NCBI GenBank assembly: GCA_024278765.1
Contig: JAJRSM010000007.1
Span: forward strand, 1 to 60,701
Direction: 5' to 3'
Length of the DNA: 60,701 nucleotides
Source: Deltaproteobacteria bacterium
Lineage (GTDB): Bacteria; Desulfobacterota; GWC2-55-46; DRQE01
Position numbers and translations under genes: made by a program. Under the pieces are notes generated by a model. The model saw only the letters and a list, made by a program, of their open reading frames with translations, was not told where the DNA came from and did no database searches. Positions 42,595-52,403 of this stretch are shown one piece after another. Position 1 is the first letter of the stretch; every line of letters starts with the position of its first letter.

Positions 42595-43410
42595 TCAAAC
42601 AACCACCTGCTTACTGCCTTTACAACGTCCCTTAAGGCCCTTTACTGCCAGCAAAACAAAGAATATCAGACTTAACAATAATATAATAAGTGGAGAGGTA
42701 GGCAGGTCGTATAAATATGACAGGATTATCCCAAAAACACTCACCACAACGCCGACGCACCAGCCGCCGAGCAAGACCACGCCCGGCCTTCTGGTATAAA
42801 GCCTACCGATAAGGGCTGGGATAACAAGCATGGCAAAGACAAGAAGTATGCCACCAAGCTTTACCGAGCTTACCAGTACAAAAGCAAAACTCAGGAAGAA
42901 TATAAACTCCCATATATAGCCCCCCTTGCCCTCTCGTGTCAGCTCAAAGAACCTGCGCCTAAAGACAAGATGGATCACCCCAATAATGAAGTAGAGGATA
43001 AAGGAATAGAGAATATCACGCGGAGCGAGCCAGAGGATATTCCCGCTTAAGATGGCCTTGAACTCTTCCAGCCCATGAGGAGAACTACTCAAGACCAGAA
43101 TACTGGCCGAGAGCGAGAAGATATACAGCACCCCGATAAAGGCCTCTATATTGGTAATGCGCGCTATATACCGGGACAAAGAAAGTATTGCGGCACCGAT
43201 AACGGCAAAGCCAACTGAGAAGAGATAGCTTCCATTATCACCAAGCCCAATCAAAAACGATACGGCTATACCAAGCCCAATGAACTGAGCAAGTGATAGA
43301 TCTACAAAGATAATCCCTCGCTCCAGCATATGCACACCAAAATAGGTATGTATCGCGATAAGCATTACACATGCCAAAAACGGGTATGTTAAAAAACCAA
43401 TTGTCTCCAC
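42595..43410 (-). CDS. ABC-3 family metal transporter permease (ZnuB-like)
   Basis: This inner-membrane permease imports Zn2+ (or Mn2+/Fe2+). It has 271 residues with about 8 helices. I start it at GTG 43410 because a perfect AGGAGG lies four bases upstream; the frame extends 22 codons further. LERGIIFVDLSLAQFIGLG and GGILLVFAMLVIPALIGRL are typical of the family. The periplasmic binding protein is directly upstream. No ATPase gene (znuC) lies in the window, so the energising subunit must be elsewhere. Confidence 0.88.
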   Translation of the reverse strand: METIGFLTYPFLACVMLIAIHTYFGVHMLERGIIFVDLSLAQFIGLGIAVSFLIGLGDNGSYLFSVGFAVIGAAILSLSRYIARITNIEAFIGVLYIFSLSASILVLSSSPHGLEEFKAILSGNILWLAPRDILYSFILYFIIGVIHLVFRRRFFELTREGKGGYIWEFIFFLSFAFVLVSSVKLGGILLVFAMLVIPALIGRLYTRRPGVVLLGGWCVGVVVSVFGIILSYLYDLPTSPLIILLLSLIFFVLLAVKGLKGRCKGSKQVVV

Positions 43411-43550
43411 GATTCCTCCTATTTTAAAGACCCGAATGACATTTAAGCCCGAAGGGCCTTTAAATATCGAAAACACAGACCATCTACTTGCTGGACGTTA
43501 AGCCCAAAGGGCCTTGAAGCCCGAAGGGCCGTCTAATTTTCAACAGACTA

Positions 43551-44480
43551 TTATCTACCTAAAGAACTTAAAGGCCGAATGGCCCGGATGGCCCGGATGA
43601 CCCGGTCCATAAACTCAAACCAGTCTTCATCTGTATTGGTAAGACCAGCCCCCACGTCATGGGGCAGGTCAATTATATTAGTACCGGTCTCTCTAGCCAA
43701 CCAGCGAGCCTGGCGACGACCATAGTAGCTAGCGGTCAAGATCGCTGCCACGTGATTATCCTTTGTTAGCCCGACCAACCTTTGGATATAACCGCTAGAG
43801 GGCGGTACGCCCGGGCGGGGCTCTATATAACCTATTATTTCAAAACTAAAATCACGGGCCAGATACTCAAAGAGCTTATGAAAGGCGATAAAGTTATTGC
43901 CTTTAAGGCTAGCACCACTCCATTCTTTACGTTTTTCCACCATCTTTGCTTTAAAAGCCTCTAGGTTATCTTTAAAAAAAGCAGCGTTTTCAGGGTCAGC
44001 GACGGCGAATGCCGCTGCAAGCCCCCCTGCCACACGCAGGACATTGCCGGGCGAGAAGTGATAATGCGGGTTGCCTTCGGAGTGGACATCTCCCATGCTG
44101 CGATCTACCAGAGCACCAGCGCCTATTATCTCTGCAATATCAAGAAACCTTGACGCATCTATATTACCTGCCCGTCCCGTGGCTATCGCCCGGTTGCGCG
44201 AAGACTCTATCAAGATCGGTAGATATCCGGCCTCTAACCCAAGGCCATTATAAATAAGGATATCGGCGCGACGCACCGCCAACAACATACTAGGCTTTGG
44301 CTGAATAAAATGCGGATCAAGCGAGGGCCTAACCAGCACTTTGACCTCTACCCTGCCACCTCCGATATCACGCGCAACGCTCCCTATCCGCGGCAGCGTT
44401 GCAACTACATTCAGAGCCGCCATGGCCGGGGTGGCCGTAAAGAATAACAACAGACTTAACATAAATATTATTCGTTTCAT
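43551..44480 (-). CDS. periplasmic metal-binding protein (ZnuA/TroA-like)
   Basis: This 309-residue protein has a signal peptide (MKRIIFMLSLLLFFTATPAMA), then the cluster A-I fold. Likely metal ligands are the His in LDPHFIQPKPS, NPHYHFSPGN, FIAFHKLFEY and an acidic residue near the end. The long His-rich loop of many ZnuA proteins is short here. A 9-base repeat near the 3' end gives RAIRAIR. AGGAGA precedes the start. It delivers metal, most likely zinc, to the permease downstream. Confidence 0.9.
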   Translation of the reverse strand: MKRIIFMLSLLLFFTATPAMAALNVVATLPRIGSVARDIGGGRVEVKVLVRPSLDPHFIQPKPSMLLAVRRADILIYNGLGLEAGYLPILIESSRNRAIATGRAGNIDASRFLDIAEIIGAGALVDRSMGDVHSEGNPHYHFSPGNVLRVAGGLAAAFAVADPENAAFFKDNLEAFKAKMVEKRKEWSGASLKGNNFIAFHKLFEYLARDFSFEIIGYIEPRPGVPPSSGYIQRLVGLTKDNHVAAILTASYYGRRQARWLARETGTNIIDLPHDVGAGLTNTDEDWFEFMDRVIRAIRAIRPLSSLGR

Positions 44481-44550: not shown

Positions 44551-46005
44551 TTAGAATGAATGCGCTCCGTGCGCGCCTATCCCGAGGATTAGCTGCAAAT
44601 ACAACTCATGGTTGGTCTCACCGGTCCTTGCCATCTCGTCGTAGTTGTACTGCAACCTGAGCCTCGTAAATTCGGTCGGGTTGAACTCAAGGCTGCCTGT
44701 CATACGCTCAGGGCTTGCGCCAAAGTCCTGATTTACGCCGTCCTTTATAAAGTCATCTTCAAAAAGGTCTAGGGCCTCGTACCTCGCACCTACTCTCCAC
44801 CGACCGAACTGATAGAAACCCTGCACGTAAAGGCCGTCCTGGCTACGCACAAGCCGCTCTACGCCGCTCGGATCAGTAGCGTCCGCGTAGTACCTGCCCG
44901 CTTGCCTACGAAGCAGATACTCCGTCTGCAGCGTCAGGGCCTTATCCTTAGACGGCCTCCACTTGTAGGTTAGCTCAGCGCCATATATCGTCGAGTCTGC
45001 TTTAAACTCACTATCACGCGCGATTGATCCGGTCTTTGTCTCTCCGCCCGCGACGGAAAATCCGGCAAGGACGGTACTGTTAACCCCTAAGTCCTTTGAG
45101 ACCTTCGCGAATGCCGCGTAGGCATGGGCGCCGTCTTCTGCGCCGTCGCCAAAGAGGACCTCATTGCTACCCTGCAAGAGCTCAAAGCCAAGCAGGGTAT
45201 AAATTGGCAGGGCCGGCATATACGTAAACTGTGCACCCTTTTCAACGAGTCCTTCCTCTCCAAAGAAGGCCAGGTAAGGCAACGGGGAATCAACAAAGTT
45301 CCACGCGTGCTGATGAAAGGCGTTGAAGCGGCCAAAGCCGCTCTTGAACTTACCTCCCTTGAGTTGCATGCCTCTTGGCAGAGCGGTCGTGACAAAATAC
45401 GCCTCTTCGACCTCAAGACCCGTCTCATTTATAGGGATCTTCGTATAGAGTTTCAGGTAAGGGTCGACCGGGGCAAATATAGCAAGCTCGACGCTCCTCA
45501 GGTTAAAGCCCTCTTTTCGGGCAGAGCCTGCCTCTTCGTTAAGGATACGGTAGCCGGGTATCTCGCGCGCATCGAGCTCGGCATCCGAGAGATTAGTACT
45601 ATAAAAGAAGGTATCCATATTAAGGCTTATTGACGGGTTCATCGAACTTTGAGAGCGGGGGGGACTTTGGAAACCGGAGGAACCGGGGACGTTCCTGGAA
45701 TTATTACCCAAGACCCCCCTGGACGCAGAGGCGACTATACGACTTACTAACCGGCCCTTATCTTCATCTTCCGGTAAGAGCCTGCCGTTAATAAGTTGCC
45801 GACGCGCGGCCTTGCCGTCTTTGAATTCCGGCTTAAGCCCTTGCCGAAGGCTCTGAATCACCGCCTCCTGGTTCTTTATTAACTTCCCTTGAGCCGCAAT
45901 GGCCCGCTCCAGTTTATTGACCCTCTCTTCTAAACTAATATTGCCTGCAAAAGCAGTTGTAGTAATTAAAAGCACCGCTACCAGTGCCGAAAAAAATATC
46001 TTCAT
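44551..46005 (-). CDS. outer-membrane porin next to the metal transporter
   Basis: This 484-residue protein from ATG 46005 has a clean signal peptide (MKIFFSALVAVLLITTTAFA). A coiled coil follows (SLEERVNKLERAIAAQGKLI), then a Ser/Pro/Gly-rich linker and a beta-rich barrel ending LYLQLILGIGAHGAHSF. An upstream in-frame start lacks the signal peptide. The layout is that of zinc-regulated or phosphate-selective-type porins. Position suggests it lets metal cross the outer membrane for the ZnuA-like protein. Confidence 0.8.
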   Translation of the reverse strand: MKIFFSALVAVLLITTTAFAGNISLEERVNKLERAIAAQGKLIKNQEAVIQSLRQGLKPEFKDGKAARRQLINGRLLPEDEDKGRLVSRIVASASRGVLGNNSRNVPGSSGFQSPPRSQSSMNPSISLNMDTFFYSTNLSDAELDAREIPGYRILNEEAGSARKEGFNLRSVELAIFAPVDPYLKLYTKIPINETGLEVEEAYFVTTALPRGMQLKGGKFKSGFGRFNAFHQHAWNFVDSPLPYLAFFGEEGLVEKGAQFTYMPALPIYTLLGFELLQGSNEVLFGDGAEDGAHAYAAFAKVSKDLGVNSTVLAGFSVAGGETKTGSIARDSEFKADSTIYGAELTYKWRPSKDKALTLQTEYLLRRQAGRYYADATDPSGVERLVRSQDGLYVQGFYQFGRWRVGARYEALDLFEDDFIKDGVNQDFGASPERMTGSLEFNPTEFTRLRLQYNYDEMARTGETNHELYLQLILGIGAHGAHSF

Positions 46006-46198: not shown

Positions 46199-46522
46199 TT
46201 AGACGGCAGGAGGTGCTCTTGGTGCGGAACTTCTTGATACGAGTCTATATACAACTCTCTCACCTTCAAGCTCAAGCGTGGCGAGATAATCAGCATATAC
46301 CGCTAGATCAACACCCGCTTCAGTGGTAAGAGCAGGGCTATGGGCAACGGTGGCGCAGGTTACGCAATCCATATTATGCGAGCGGGCATCATCATGGTGA
46401 TGAACAGCACCCACCATAAAGGTAAAGAGCATCGCTAAAACAACTACGCTGTGCAACGCCTTAGATCGCATATTGATTCGTCTAAACATAAGGTAAAAGA
46501 TCATACCAAAAAGACCCTTCAT
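46199..46522 (-). CDS. small exported His/Cys protein
   Basis: This is about 107 residues with a hydrophobic leader (HSVVVLAMLFTFMVGA), then HHHDDARSHNMDCVTCATVAH, a likely metal-binding stretch, and an acidic then basic tail. Such proteins occur in metal-resistance clusters, but I do not recognise a named family (DUF2946-like is possible). Start choice is uncertain: ATG at 46522, 46504 or 46471 are all in frame. It is the nearest gene to the porin and the TlpA-like gene. Confidence 0.65.
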   Translation of the reverse strand: MKGLFGMIFYLMFRRINMRSKALHSVVVLAMLFTFMVGAVHHHDDARSHNMDCVTCATVAHSPALTTEAGVDLAVYADYLATLELEGERVVYRLVSRSSAPRAPPAV

Positions 46523-46566
46523 ATTCAAGAACAGGAATAAGAAACAAGGGCACTCTTTTGCTCAGG

Positions 46567-47214
46567 CTACTTCAGCATAGCCCTAAAGAGCTCGTGAGAC
46601 TCTGCGCTATTCCACTTGCGAGCACCGGTTATTTTGCCAACAAACCGCCCGTCCCGCCCGATCACATAGGTCATTGGAAGTACAGTTACAAGATAAAGCC
46701 TACGCACGTGATTGTCATGGTCAAGAACAATATCCATTTTGATATTAGACTTTCTGATAAATTTGCCGACTATCTTCTTTGTCCACGCATATGACCCTCT
46801 ATCGACAGCTACGCCGATCACACGAAGCCCCTTGCCTTCCATATCAGCACGCAGTTCACCGAGCATCGGCATTTCTTTGCGGCACACCTTGCACCAAGTA
46901 GCCCAAAAATGCAGCAATACAAGATCGCCTTTGAGATCGCCCATAACCAACGGCTTGCCGTCCATATCCTTGGGTGTAAACTCAGGGGCGAGCTTACGGA
47001 GCGTAAAATCAGGGGCGAGCTTACGCTCGCTGGGCATAACCATTCCAAAGGCCTTTGCCTGCACCTTATAGCTCTCTATCTTGTGATTCGCTACTAAGAC
47101 CTCTCCAGCCAAGACCGCAGTCGGGATAAATGCCCTAATAAATATAAAAAGACATAAAATAAAAGCTACTATATATTTTCTAAAGAAGTTATCCTTCCCC
47201 GCCTGACAAACCAT
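46567..47214 (-). CDS. TlpA/ResA-like thioredoxin with signal anchor
   Basis: This 215-residue protein from ATG 47214 (GAGG upstream) has a hydrophobic segment at about 14-34, then a thioredoxin domain with FWATWCKVCRKEMP (the CxxC is CKVC). It probably reduces disulphides in the periplasm, possibly for haem attachment to the one-haem lipoprotein encoded 2 bases upstream. A 27-base duplication (46982-46998 and 47009-47025) gives two adjacent nine-residue units, RKLAPDFTL and RKLAPEFTP, at about 64-81. Confidence 0.85.
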   Translation of the reverse strand: MVCQAGKDNFFRKYIVAFILCLFIFIRAFIPTAVLAGEVLVANHKIESYKVQAKAFGMVMPSERKLAPDFTLRKLAPEFTPKDMDGKPLVMGDLKGDLVLLHFWATWCKVCRKEMPMLGELRADMEGKGLRVIGVAVDRGSYAWTKKIVGKFIRKSNIKMDIVLDHDNHVRRLYLVTVLPMTYVIGRDGRFVGKITGARKWNSAESHELFRAMLK

Positions 47215-47216
47215 AA

Positions 47217-47495
47217 CTACCTCGCGTTGTTTATTAAATATTTTCCTATAAGCTTCCATTCTTCTTCACTCATGGAAGGCACTCCTCGCTCCTTCATTAC
47301 CTGGCGCATCCGGGGTAGCCAGCTCTCCCACTGAGTGGCCGTAAAACGTTTTGGATGCGCCAGCGCATGGCACGTAGCACACCTATTACGGTAAAGGCTC
47401 GCCGCCTCTGAGCCATCATTAGGGATAGGGGTTGGCAAGGCTACGCAGCCTAAGAGTCCTACCATTAAAACAACCACCCAAAAAAACCTTGCCAT
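47217..47495 (-). CDS. small single-haem c-type cytochrome lipoprotein
   Basis: This 92-residue protein has a lipobox (LLGC at about 14-17), so it is likely anchored to a membrane by lipid. CATCH is the haem-binding motif, and Met residues further on (RMRQVM, VPSM) may be the second axial ligand. It is 2 bases from the TlpA-like gene, which supports a redox role for the pair. The stop is TAG. Confidence 0.85.
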   Translation of the reverse strand: MARFFWVVVLMVGLLGCVALPTPIPNDGSEAASLYRNRCATCHALAHPKRFTATQWESWLPRMRQVMKERGVPSMSEEEWKLIGKYLINNAR

Positions 47496-47528: not shown

Positions 47529-48707
47529 CTAAAAACCAAGCCTATTCTTACCATTCCTCTCGCTACCCACATACCTCTTGCTTTTTTTCGTAGGTATCTC
47601 GATATACCAAGTTAGCATCACCGAATAATCCTCTTCAAGCTGACGTCCATACATGTCCTGATATATTGGTGTGCTCACGCCGAGTGCAATTATGTGTAGC
47701 GGCTTTGGCTGCCACTGAAGCTCTGCCGTAACCGCAACGGTCTTACCCCCGTAGTTATCAGGGTCCCATGCAGGCGACATATAACCACTGCTCGCATCAA
47801 AGCGAGTCTTTCTACCTGACTCACCGGTTAGGGCCTGATCTGCCTCTCCGTCGATACGGCCTTTGTACCTGGCGTTTAACTGAAGCCCGGCGACCAGATT
47901 ATAGGTAAGCTGGCGCATACCGTAGAGATCCAACCTGAACTCATCACCATATTGCCAGCCCTGCGAATTGTCATATAATCTGGCCGTATAGATGGCATTA
48001 ACGCCCCACCACCACGGTGAAAGCGAGCCCTCATATAACAGCCCAATACTCGGGTCAAATGTCCCCGTACCAAGCTGCATGGCATAAGGCAGCAGCTCGC
48101 CTCGGCGTTCCGCCAAAGGATGATTGGTATTATTCTCACTGATCGAACCTGCCGGCAGGCTAAGCCCCATAACGAGCGATACCTGACTCTTTGGAATATC
48201 AGGGTCATCGGTATAGAGTCTGTACTTTCCCATCAGCATAACGTCGCCGATACCGCCGGACTCCATCGTATAACTTTCTTTTCCGGTCATGTTCCGCATC
48301 GGCTGGTTAAACTTCATACCCATGCTATTTTCCTTCCACATAAGCATCGCACCGAGAAAGATATCGTCGCTATAGCTATAGCCAACGGTCATATTCACCA
48401 TGCTCATATCCATATACGACGGGGCCGCCATAAACTCCGAGCCCATACCGCCGCTAACCAGTGACTTTTCACTTAGAGAATCAGTCCCGTCTCGCATCCC
48501 CTCCATACGCATAAACATAGGGCTAAGCTTCACACGCAGTTCATAGGTGGCGGGCACGCCGCCGCCCGGTATATTAAGCGGCATATTACCACCGCACTTT
48601 GCGCAGCACAGCCCAACGTAGGCCTCTGCAACAACCGGCATAACCAGTAACAAAATAATAACTAAAAACACAGACGATATTCGCCTAAGGTGTTTACTAA
48701 GATACAT
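47529..48707 (-). CDS. Met-rich outer-membrane beta-barrel protein
   Basis: This 392-residue protein from ATG 48707 (GGGAGGT upstream; the earlier start is unsupported) has a signal peptide ending VVAEA, then CCAKCGGNMP. A stretch unusually rich in Met follows (MRMEGMRDG, SYMDMSMVNM, MLMWKENSMGM), then a beta-rich barrel. It is close to the 'transporter/phenol MetA degradation' type outer-membrane proteins found in metal clusters. The Met and Cys suggest copper or other soft-metal contact, which is inference. Confidence 0.75.
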   Translation of the reverse strand: MYLSKHLRRISSVFLVIILLLVMPVVAEAYVGLCCAKCGGNMPLNIPGGGVPATYELRVKLSPMFMRMEGMRDGTDSLSEKSLVSGGMGSEFMAAPSYMDMSMVNMTVGYSYSDDIFLGAMLMWKENSMGMKFNQPMRNMTGKESYTMESGGIGDVMLMGKYRLYTDDPDIPKSQVSLVMGLSLPAGSISENNTNHPLAERRGELLPYAMQLGTGTFDPSIGLLYEGSLSPWWWGVNAIYTARLYDNSQGWQYGDEFRLDLYGMRQLTYNLVAGLQLNARYKGRIDGEADQALTGESGRKTRFDASSGYMSPAWDPDNYGGKTVAVTAELQWQPKPLHIIALGVSTPIYQDMYGRQLEEDYSVMLTWYIEIPTKKSKRYVGSERNGKNRLGF

Positions 48708-48871
48708 ATTTAAAGACCTCCCGAAAAGGCAGCTAAACCACGGGCAGCTCTGGCAACAAACGCTTGTGCACAATCAAATACGCACAAAAAAACGCATCTA
48801 TACCCAGCCGCAGCCGCAGCGGTAATTAATAAAATATTTTTAAAATTTACTAGAATTACTAAAGAAAGGCT

Positions 48872-49540
48872 TTAGTGCTTGGGAGGTTTCTGAGGTGTAT
48901 CACCATATAATTCATCATAGATAAAGGCCAACGCAACTGAAAGATACTCAGTCGCAAAGGTCCTGACAGGGGGCATATACTGCGCCGGCACGTAGCTCTC
49001 GGCGACCGAGAGGAAGGCGGCAACCGCGCCATCGCTCTTTTGACAACCAACACAGCCACAATCAAGAAGGACCTTGCAATTGCCCTTTTTATCAAGCTCA
49101 ATGTCAGCATCGCCTTTAATATGGGCATGGCCTGTATCATGCGCCCCTTTTGCGTCATACAGATCCGATAGATGAACGCCCGTGCCGGTATGCGTATCTT
49201 TATCCAGATGAACGCCCGTGCCAGTATGCGTATCTTTATCCAGATGAACGCCCGTGCCAGTATGCGTATCTTTATCCAGATGAACGCCCGTGCCAGTATG
49301 CGTATCTTTATCCAAATGAACGCCCGTGCCAGTATGCGTATCTTTATCCAGATGAACACCCGTGTCTGCGCCTTTCTCATGCTTAGAATGAGACTCTGAC
49401 GTTAGATGAGCACCCTCGGAAGCGTCATCTTCTACATGCACACCCTCACCAAGACCCGAGACTATCCCGGCCTCAGAGACAGAGACAACAGCAAGAGCAG
49501 CAAAGACCGCAAAGAAGGCTATCAAAAAGAGTTTTTTCAT
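48872..49540 (-). CDS. secreted His-repeat protein (likely metal binding)
   Basis: This 222-residue protein has a signal peptide (MKKLFLIAFFAVF at the start), then a His/Glu/Ser stretch. Five tandem copies of a 12-residue unit GVHLDKDTHTGT follow (residues 61-120), then HDTGHAHIKG, and a Cys motif CKVLLDCGCVGC. The start is ATG 49540, not the earlier in-frame one that lacks a signal peptide. No known family is evident to me. Each unit offers two His and two Asp, so the repeat region could bind several zinc, nickel or copper ions. It closes the metal cluster, pointing to a periplasmic metal sink or chaperone. Confidence 0.75.
   Translation of the reverse strand: MKKLFLIAFFAVFAALAVVSVSEAGIVSGLGEGVHVEDDASEGAHLTSESHSKHEKGADTGVHLDKDTHTGTGVHLDKDTHTGTGVHLDKDTHTGTGVHLDKDTHTGTGVHLDKDTHTGTGVHLSDLYDAKGAHDTGHAHIKGDADIELDKKGNCKVLLDCGCVGCQKSDGAVAAFLSVAESYVPAQYMPPVRTFATEYLSVALAFIYDELYGDTPQKPPKH
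49171..49380. repeat. 36-base tandem repeats in the His-repeat gene
   Basis: Units begin at 49171, 49207, 49243, 49279, 49315 and (diverged) 49351. They are nearly identical at DNA level, with single-base differences, so expansion is recent. There are no spacers, so it is not a CRISPR. Confidence 0.95.
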
Positions 49541-50304
49541 GATTTTAATCTTAACACACAACAAAACCACAAACAAGACACTCGCTATCTTGTTTGTAAA
49601 TTAAAAAACTATCTCTCGTTTCCACATAGATCGACAAATATTTACATAACTAAAGATGATTGAGATTTTTGTATGATATGTCATATAAAACAAAAGGCCA
49701 CAAAGTTTATCGCAAACGTCCACGAGACGCCCATAAATATCCAGCCATTAATAGTTATCTAACGCCTCCTTCCGTCTCAGCCGAATTACAAAAATACAAA
49801 TAACAAAACAAATTAAATCTCCCTTTAGATTCCCCCATAAAAAAAAAGAGATCAAAATCAGATTGCCGCGTCGGCTTACGCCTCCTCGCAACGACATAGT
49901 AAGTGGCGCAACCCACCCATAAACTACCGAGCTAACGTAGGGCGAGGCTTTAGCCTTGCCGGTGCTCTTCTGTCTCTATACTAAAAAGACGCAACCCTAA
50001 AGGGTGCTGCGCACAGCAAATGTATTAACTTCGTACTACGCGCTGCATCAACCATCCTAATGTACTTTACCGCCCCGTAGTCGCTTTGCCCCCACGCATG
50101 TGGGCTGCCCTACGATAAAACAAAAGCAAAAAAGTTAAGAGCCACATTCACCTTGACCGCATTAATCAAAAATTATATATTGTTAAATATTTATACAAAC
50201 CAAGGCTAAACACACTGCGACCTCCGTAACATCCATCACCCCTAATGCGCATCAAGGCCTTGCTAAATTACTTTAAAGATACCCGCAAACCCGAGAGGCA
50301 GTGA
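49541..50304. other. 764-base gene-poor region
   Basis: This holds the upstream region of the His-repeat gene, a remnant of a MetS-like peptide gene (49681-49758) and dispersed extragenic repeats near 49858-49902 and 49987-50010 that resemble stretches at 2828-2873 and 2641-2663. No intact gene is visible. Confidence 0.6.
49681..49758 (-). pseudogene. remnant of an NSS small-subunit gene
   Basis: The plus-strand stretch 49716-49780 is nearly identical to 52329-52391. Read on the minus strand it encodes TINGWIFMGVSWTF and a hydrophobic end. The start codon is ATA instead of ATG, and the peptide (25 residues) ends early. No transporter gene lies next to it. It is a decayed second copy of the gene at 52272. 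Confidence 0.65.
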
Positions 50305-51230: not shown

Positions 51231-51236
51231 AAATAT

Positions 51237-51340
51237 AGAGTGATAAGACCATTGTGGGTTGTCTGTAGTGTTCCCTTCCGGAGGTTGATAAAGCTATGGC
51301 GCAACAAGCCTGCAGGGCACGCTCTTTTTTATTTTTCAGG
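51237..51340 (+). ncRNA. candidate small RNA or leader
   Basis: This lies between the promoter and a T-rich tail (CTCTTTTTTATTTTT at about 51322-51336). It has potential pairing (GTTGATA...CAAC, CCTTCCGGAGG). I checked it against SRP RNA, 6S RNA, tmRNA, RNase P RNA and common riboswitch consensus patterns without a match. It may be a leader for the downstream gene or a separate transcript. Confidence 0.3.
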
Positions 51341-52271: not shown

Positions 52272-52370
52272 CTACCTCTTCTTCAAAAAAATATTATAAA
52301 AGCAAAAAATGACAAGACTCGTTACGAGCGTCCACGAGACGCCCATAAATATCCAGCCGTTAATAGTCAT
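52272..52370 (-). CDS. NSS symporter small accessory peptide (MetS-like)
   Basis: This 32-residue peptide begins MTINGWIFMGVSWTL, then is hydrophobic and ends in FLKKR, one membrane helix with a basic end. AGGAGG lies five bases before the ATG. It follows the NSS transporter gene by 33 bases. Tiny membrane partners of this kind are known for NSS amino-acid importers (MetS with MetP), so it is probably a subunit or stabiliser. The stop is TAG. Confidence 0.8.
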   Translation of the reverse strand: MTINGWIFMGVSWTLVTSLVIFCFYNIFLKKR

Positions 52371-52403
52371 CTAGATCCTCCTTCCGTCTCAAACAACCCA
52401 AAA

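Follow-up and report, generated by a model that had tools for sequence, protein, structure and literature searches.

What does a small secreted protein with a histidine-rich tandem array do at the head of a series of metal-related genes? The question is raised by an open reading frame (48872..49540, reverse (-) strand, ATG at 49540, stop codon 48872-48874) in a 60,701-nucleotide stretch of DNA from Deltaproteobacteria bacterium (contig JAJRSM010000007.1), referred to here as the window; the genes and gene features described below between 42595 and 49540 all lie on the same strand. The original prediction for its product was an undescribed periplasmic metal-buffer protein. The link to metals and the export of the protein are both supported by the present analysis, but buffering is not the best reading of its Pro-Pro tail, of the spacing of its cysteines and of the predicted pairing with the Shine-Dalgarno (SD) sequence of the next gene. 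It is argued here that the gene is quite probably a leader ORF that senses metal in the manner of CutF and CruR, and that its product has the look of a sensor switch, with metal storage not its main role.

The gene is single-copy and encodes 222 aa, of which 162 remain when the five repeats are taken out. Residues 1-24 (MKKLFLIAFFAVFAALAVVSVSEA; 49469..49540) were read by eye as a Sec signal peptide, in line with the original prediction, the N-terminus being hydrophobic with a SEA/G site, and AlphaFold places a helix at residues 2-25. Five 12-residue units, GVHLDKDTHTGT, occupy residues 61-120 (49181..49360). These had been described as near-identical; they are identical as protein, and the 36-nt DNA units vary at a few silent sites only (TRF: 5.4 copies, 97% match, score 369). 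Since the differences are silent, the array is the product of recent tandem duplication, and nothing about selection can be read from how alike its copies are. Degenerate GVH/GAH segments lie on both sides of the array; further His stretches had also been remarked upon. In total there are 19 His and four Cys (155, 161, 163 and 166), the latter forming a putative metal site, C155-x5-C161-x-C163-x2-C166 (49043..49078), proposed from the sequence and from the spacing test described below; the four-Cys motif had been predicted, with a first spacing of x6 that was off by one. The protein ends in DTPQKPPKH, and the codons for Pro219-Pro220, CCU CCC (48881..48886), constitute a putative pause site and anti-Shine-Dalgarno. 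The predicted structure is of low confidence (mean pLDDT 49).

No relative of the full-length protein was found in Pfam, NCBIfam, the PDB, plasmids, a GTDB genome scan or 62 class-mates. Weak matches, for example to LpxA-type acyltransferases, were chance matches in those cases that were inspected, and a match to NCBIfam TafF (E 0.002; 17 bits where the family requires 420) was rejected as compositional. There was no match to Pfam DUF2946 (PF11162) at E 0.1, and the tail sequence QKPPKH is neither RAPP nor RGPP.

The genes around it are more informative. Transcription runs leftward through the His-repeat gene, a Met/Cys-conserved outer-membrane beta-barrel of FapF/COG4313 fold (47529..48707), a small c-type cytochrome (CxxCH; 47217..47495), a TlpA/ResA-like thioredoxin (46567..47259), a second small His/Cys protein (46199..46528), a second outer-membrane protein (44551..46005), a ZnuA-type metal-binding protein (43551..44480; Pfam E 4e-48) and an ABC-3 permease (42595..43476; Pfam E 3.9e-24). 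The ZnuA protein, the permease, the two outer-membrane proteins and the small His/Cys protein had all been named as neighbours in the original prediction and all are there, but the His-repeat gene, which had been placed at the end of a metal cluster, stands in the transcribed direction at the start of the series. The original prediction mentioned neither the Pro-Pro tail nor the RNA pairing nor the corresponding slots in other genomes. Two modules are joined in the window, and module 1 (barrel-cytochrome-TlpA) is found elsewhere without module 2. The His-repeat gene is the first of a module of its own, probably linked to copper, and a separate ZnuA module with a RAPP-type leader comes after it.

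This second leader contains a CxxC, ends in RAPPAV and matches DUF2946 at E 2.7e-4, just short of the family cut-off; the only DUF2946 match in the genome (46208-46399) falls within it. Module 2, consisting of this DUF2946-like RAPP-tailed leader, the second outer-membrane protein, ZnuA and the permease, is found again in relatives, and at 8/8 class-mate loci read a small exported RAPP-tailed protein with a CxxC and a His-rich N-terminal part precedes the second outer-membrane protein. In the window the Pro codons of the RAPPAV tail are also predicted to pair with the next Shine-Dalgarno. Within the window no ATPase gene adjoins the ZnuA/permease pair (42595-44480), and of the many ABC ATPases that the genome encodes none reaches the AztA cut-off.

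Module 1 is widespread. Homologues of the barrel are present at 55-59% identity in five class-mates and in 80 named loci (a few of them on contigs already counted among the class-mates) from Gamma- and Zetaproteobacteria, Nitrospirota, Nitrospinota, Spirochaetes, Scalindua, Dadabacteria and others. Cytochrome c/TlpA partners were found in 74/84 barrel loci examined, several of whose contigs end early. Structure prediction gives a beta-barrel with good confidence (mean pLDDT 86.4), most similar to FapF and the COG4313 channel, and across 34 homologues Cys34, 35 and 38 and Met42, 66, 68, 99, 101, 103, 121, 129, 131, 148 and 210 are invariant. Genes for PCuAC, DUF326 or Fe2+-transport (P19-type) proteins adjoin the barrel in some loci. 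The PCuAC and DUF326 neighbours, taken with the invariant Met and Cys of the barrel, make copper the likeliest metal for module 1, and the barrel, accompanied in several phyla by a cytochrome c and TlpA, likely has a copper-related function. Zinc is disfavoured as the metal of the His-repeat gene, since those homologous modules that were read have no ZnuA, and some of them do have PCuAC or DUF326 genes. No description of the barrel module was found in the literature accessible without subscription.

In most of the named barrel loci outside Gammaproteobacteria a small exported His/Cys protein occupies the slot ahead of the barrel. At loci G006, G013 and G015 it lies directly ahead of the barrel gene, and an upstream sodium symporter is common to G006, G015 and the window. 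Alignment of slot proteins between lineages fails, and this is also the case for the His-repeat protein, for which HMM and hhalign comparison with the other slot proteins gave at best 10.9 bits, within the range of its own shuffles. As there is no significant similarity, its orthology rests on position and architecture, and these are what the slot proteins have in common across lineages. One element of this architecture is the tail. A blind rule that took the exported + strand ORF ending 20-400 nt ahead of the barrel alignment, ignoring composition and tail, picked ORFs with PP within the last 10 residues in 33/36 cases. The exceptions were a different Cys-rich protein (L112) and two overlapping ORFs (L127 and L131) at loci where the true slot ORFs do have PP. 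The figure for curated slot proteins is 39/39, a set that was partly hand-chosen, with which the blind rule agrees, and in which loci within a lineage are not independent. In comparison, 14/518 conserved background genes and 0/6 gamma loci have such a tail. The position of Cys relative to the tail is similarly constrained. A Cys lies 46-55 residues ahead of PP in 38/39 curated slot proteins, the His-repeat protein included (Cys166 and Pro219-Pro220); Cys density is 0.174 in this interval against 0.003-0.054 elsewhere, and Cys is rare nearer to PP.

These findings bear directly on the proposed buffer, in which the His/Asp repeats would hold Zn, Cu or Ni and the tail and RNA pairing would have no role. 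The presence of 19 His and four Cys in an exported protein that adjoins metal genes fits such a function, as does the His-rich character of other slot proteins. A buffer would have no need of a conserved PP tail or of the Cys spacing, however, and CutF was quickly degraded after export (PMC9973294). The original prediction had counted the absence of the His units from homologues against itself, and here the result is divided: a comparable tandem unit is absent from every other slot protein, but many have another His-rich stretch. What the slot conserves is the Cys-to-Pro-Pro distance and the predicted SD pairing, not a His repeat, and we consider the buffer unlikely. It has also to be considered whether the protein is a metal chaperone passing copper or zinc on to the barrel or its TlpA/cytochrome partners, in which case the PP tail would serve for binding or processing. 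Co-occurrence with the barrel, cytochrome c and TlpA would be expected of such a protein, but unlike chaperones the slot proteins have no alignable domain between lineages, and most gamma loci that have this barrel lack a gene in the slot, so that this explanation appears very improbable. The gamma loci (among L057-L113) have the same barrel mostly without an exported PP-tailed leader in front, from which it follows that control of the barrel must differ there.

A sensing role is suggested by two leaders that respond to copper. In Rhodobacter capsulatus the exported leader CutF carries a Cys copper motif, followed about 45 residues further on by a Pro-rich C-terminus, and a stem-loop covers the Shine-Dalgarno of the gene downstream (PMC9973294). 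The Pro tail of CutF did not stall by itself (PMC9973294), which counts against a pause in the His-repeat leader, as does its tail being neither RAPP nor RGPP. CruR of Bordetella pertussis, a DUF2946 protein, has a CXXC at 90-93 and RAPP at 139-142 and acts with Rho-dependent termination (PMC9426467). The layout of the His-repeat locus is the same as in CutF and CruR, and this argues for a metal-sensing nascent-chain leader. Since the slot in dozens of other bacteria holds a small exported leader that probably senses metal, most likely copper, during its own translation and turns on the adjacent outer-membrane protein, the His-repeat protein itself reads as a sensor switch.

Further support comes from the RNA at the junction of leader and barrel. 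The intergenic region (48708..48871, 164 nt) is structured, and the 236-nt junction folds better than its shuffles (z -3.1). In the window the Shine-Dalgarno of the barrel gene, GGGAGG (48717..48722), is predicted to pair with CCUCCC of the Pro219-Pro220 codons (p about 1), and 14/15 other synonymous Pro-Pro codon pairs are predicted to raise SD exposure. Pairing of the SD with the leader 3' end (last ~36 nt) at p>0.5 was predicted for 29/38 slot loci but only 4/46 control gene pairs (p 6e-12). Only 17/38 slot loci exceed 0.5 when the pairing has to fall on the Pro codons themselves (+-1 codon), and such pairing is weak or mostly missing in Nitrospinota. Native tail/SD duplexes were stronger than swapped ones (0/10000 permutations), also inside each lineage group, and CCT encodes the first Pro in 21/40 slot proteins compared with 20% in other genes (p 5e-6). 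Simulated ribosome occupancy freed the SD only partly, from 0.001 to 0.165. Pause codons that double as anti-Shine-Dalgarno were not found described for metal leaders in the same subscription-free literature.

The same region allows a mechanism of the CruR kind to be weighed, in which a pause at the Pro codons would block Rho-dependent termination before the barrel and metal would relieve the pause, so that abundant metal would shut the operon down. At 164 nt the intergenic region nearly matches that of cruR-bfrG (162 nt; PMC9426467), and the Pro-Pro tail and Cys spacing are like those of CruR. The tail is not RAPP, however, and the intergenic region has no C>G bubble, G exceeding C on the sense strand; at the 3' end of the leader gene itself C is slightly in excess. 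The greater G than C content favours unmasking of the Shine-Dalgarno over Rho, and the conserved pairing of SD and leader tail fits translational masking better. Rho-based control is judged improbable, a little more so than the buffer.

If the preferred reading, a leader controlling translation of the barrel, is correct, the metal, the stalling and the direction of the response we infer as follows. The His-repeat chain would be exported during translation. The ribosome would slow at Pro219-Pro220, at which point the Cys cluster would have just cleared the exit tunnel/translocon, with the His array by then in the periplasm. Metal, most likely copper, bound to the chain would alter the length of the pause, and a ribosome on the Pro codons would cover the anti-Shine-Dalgarno, allowing the barrel-cytochrome-TlpA genes to be translated. 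All these leaders vary in their His-rich segment, and the 12-residue array is such a segment recently expanded in tandem; it may let the sensor capture more metal but could also be a neutral expansion.

The DNA upstream of the leader has several features of its own. Two perfectly matched 10-bp arms around a 9-bp spacer (49569-49597) form an inverted repeat that occurs nowhere else in the genome; it lies 28 nt ahead of the start codon and is a candidate operator or 5' hairpin. The leader and the sodium symporter are adjacent in relatives; in the window they are separated by a 2.6-kb stretch, bracketed by 93-nt direct repeats that are 80% identical (49687-49779 and 52299-52391), which looks like an insertion. 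A DUF3800-V RNA (Rfam RF02964, 60.5 bits; 51231-51329) lies between leader and symporter, and the segments 49933-50005 and 50076-50114 have dozens of 75-97% matches genome-wide and are dispersed intergenic repeats.

A wider proposal, for which we would put the chances a little short of even, is that exported metal-sensing leader ORFs form a broad set, too far diverged for alignment, whose members are selected chiefly for their Cys-to-Pro-Pro distance and for complementarity of the leader 3' end to the next RBS. In some of these, the His-repeat leader among them, the pause codons would be the anti-Shine-Dalgarno, so that a paused ribosome unmasks the next gene, and the copy number of the His array may tune sensitivity. 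If the leader reading is right, a hypothetical protein that sequence searches leave unclassifiable gains a testable role, and a signature of Cys about 50 residues before a C-terminal Pro-Pro, with the leader 3' end complementary to the next RBS, could bring to light many metal-sensing leaders now overlooked by Pfam models and length filters. The reading would also provide a compact model of a switch whose pause codons are the anti-Shine-Dalgarno, testable by silent mutations alone, and would tie a conserved, apparently unstudied Met-rich outer-membrane module to control by metal, probably copper.

Among known systems the likeness to CutF extends to the Sec signal, the Cys motif, the Pro-rich C-terminal motif about 45-53 residues further on, the metal-related downstream gene and a predicted stem-loop shielding the Shine-Dalgarno of that gene (PMC9973294). 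When the filters used to find CutF-like proteins (PMC9973294) are applied, the locus has a signal peptide, C-terminal Pro219-Pro220, 164 nt to the barrel ATG and a putative Cys motif; its 222 aa exceed the <150 aa limit, which is a limit of the search and not a functional trait. It differs from CutF in the 5 x 12-residue His repeat and four-Cys cluster, in that two Pro codons of the leader are themselves the predicted anti-Shine-Dalgarno, and in having downstream a Met-rich FapF/COG4313-fold barrel where CutF has a multicopper oxidase. CopL of Xanthomonas/Stenotrophomonas, compared by description only, from the part of the CutF report that deals with it, is likewise a small exported leader, needed in cis for a downstream copper gene (PMC9973294). 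Arrest peptides of the SecM/RAPP type are also exported leaders on which a paused ribosome is thought to unmask the next Shine-Dalgarno, but they monitor protein export, have no metal motif and use another arrest sequence (PMC10987492, PMC12992588). With CruR the His-repeat leader shares its export, its place at the head of an outer-membrane transporter operon, the Cys-to-Pro-Pro spacing and a long intergenic region (PMC9426467), but not a Pfam DUF2946 match or a RAPP, and no Rho-type C>G bubble was seen in the intergenic region; the CruR-like protein of the window is the second small protein (46199-46528).
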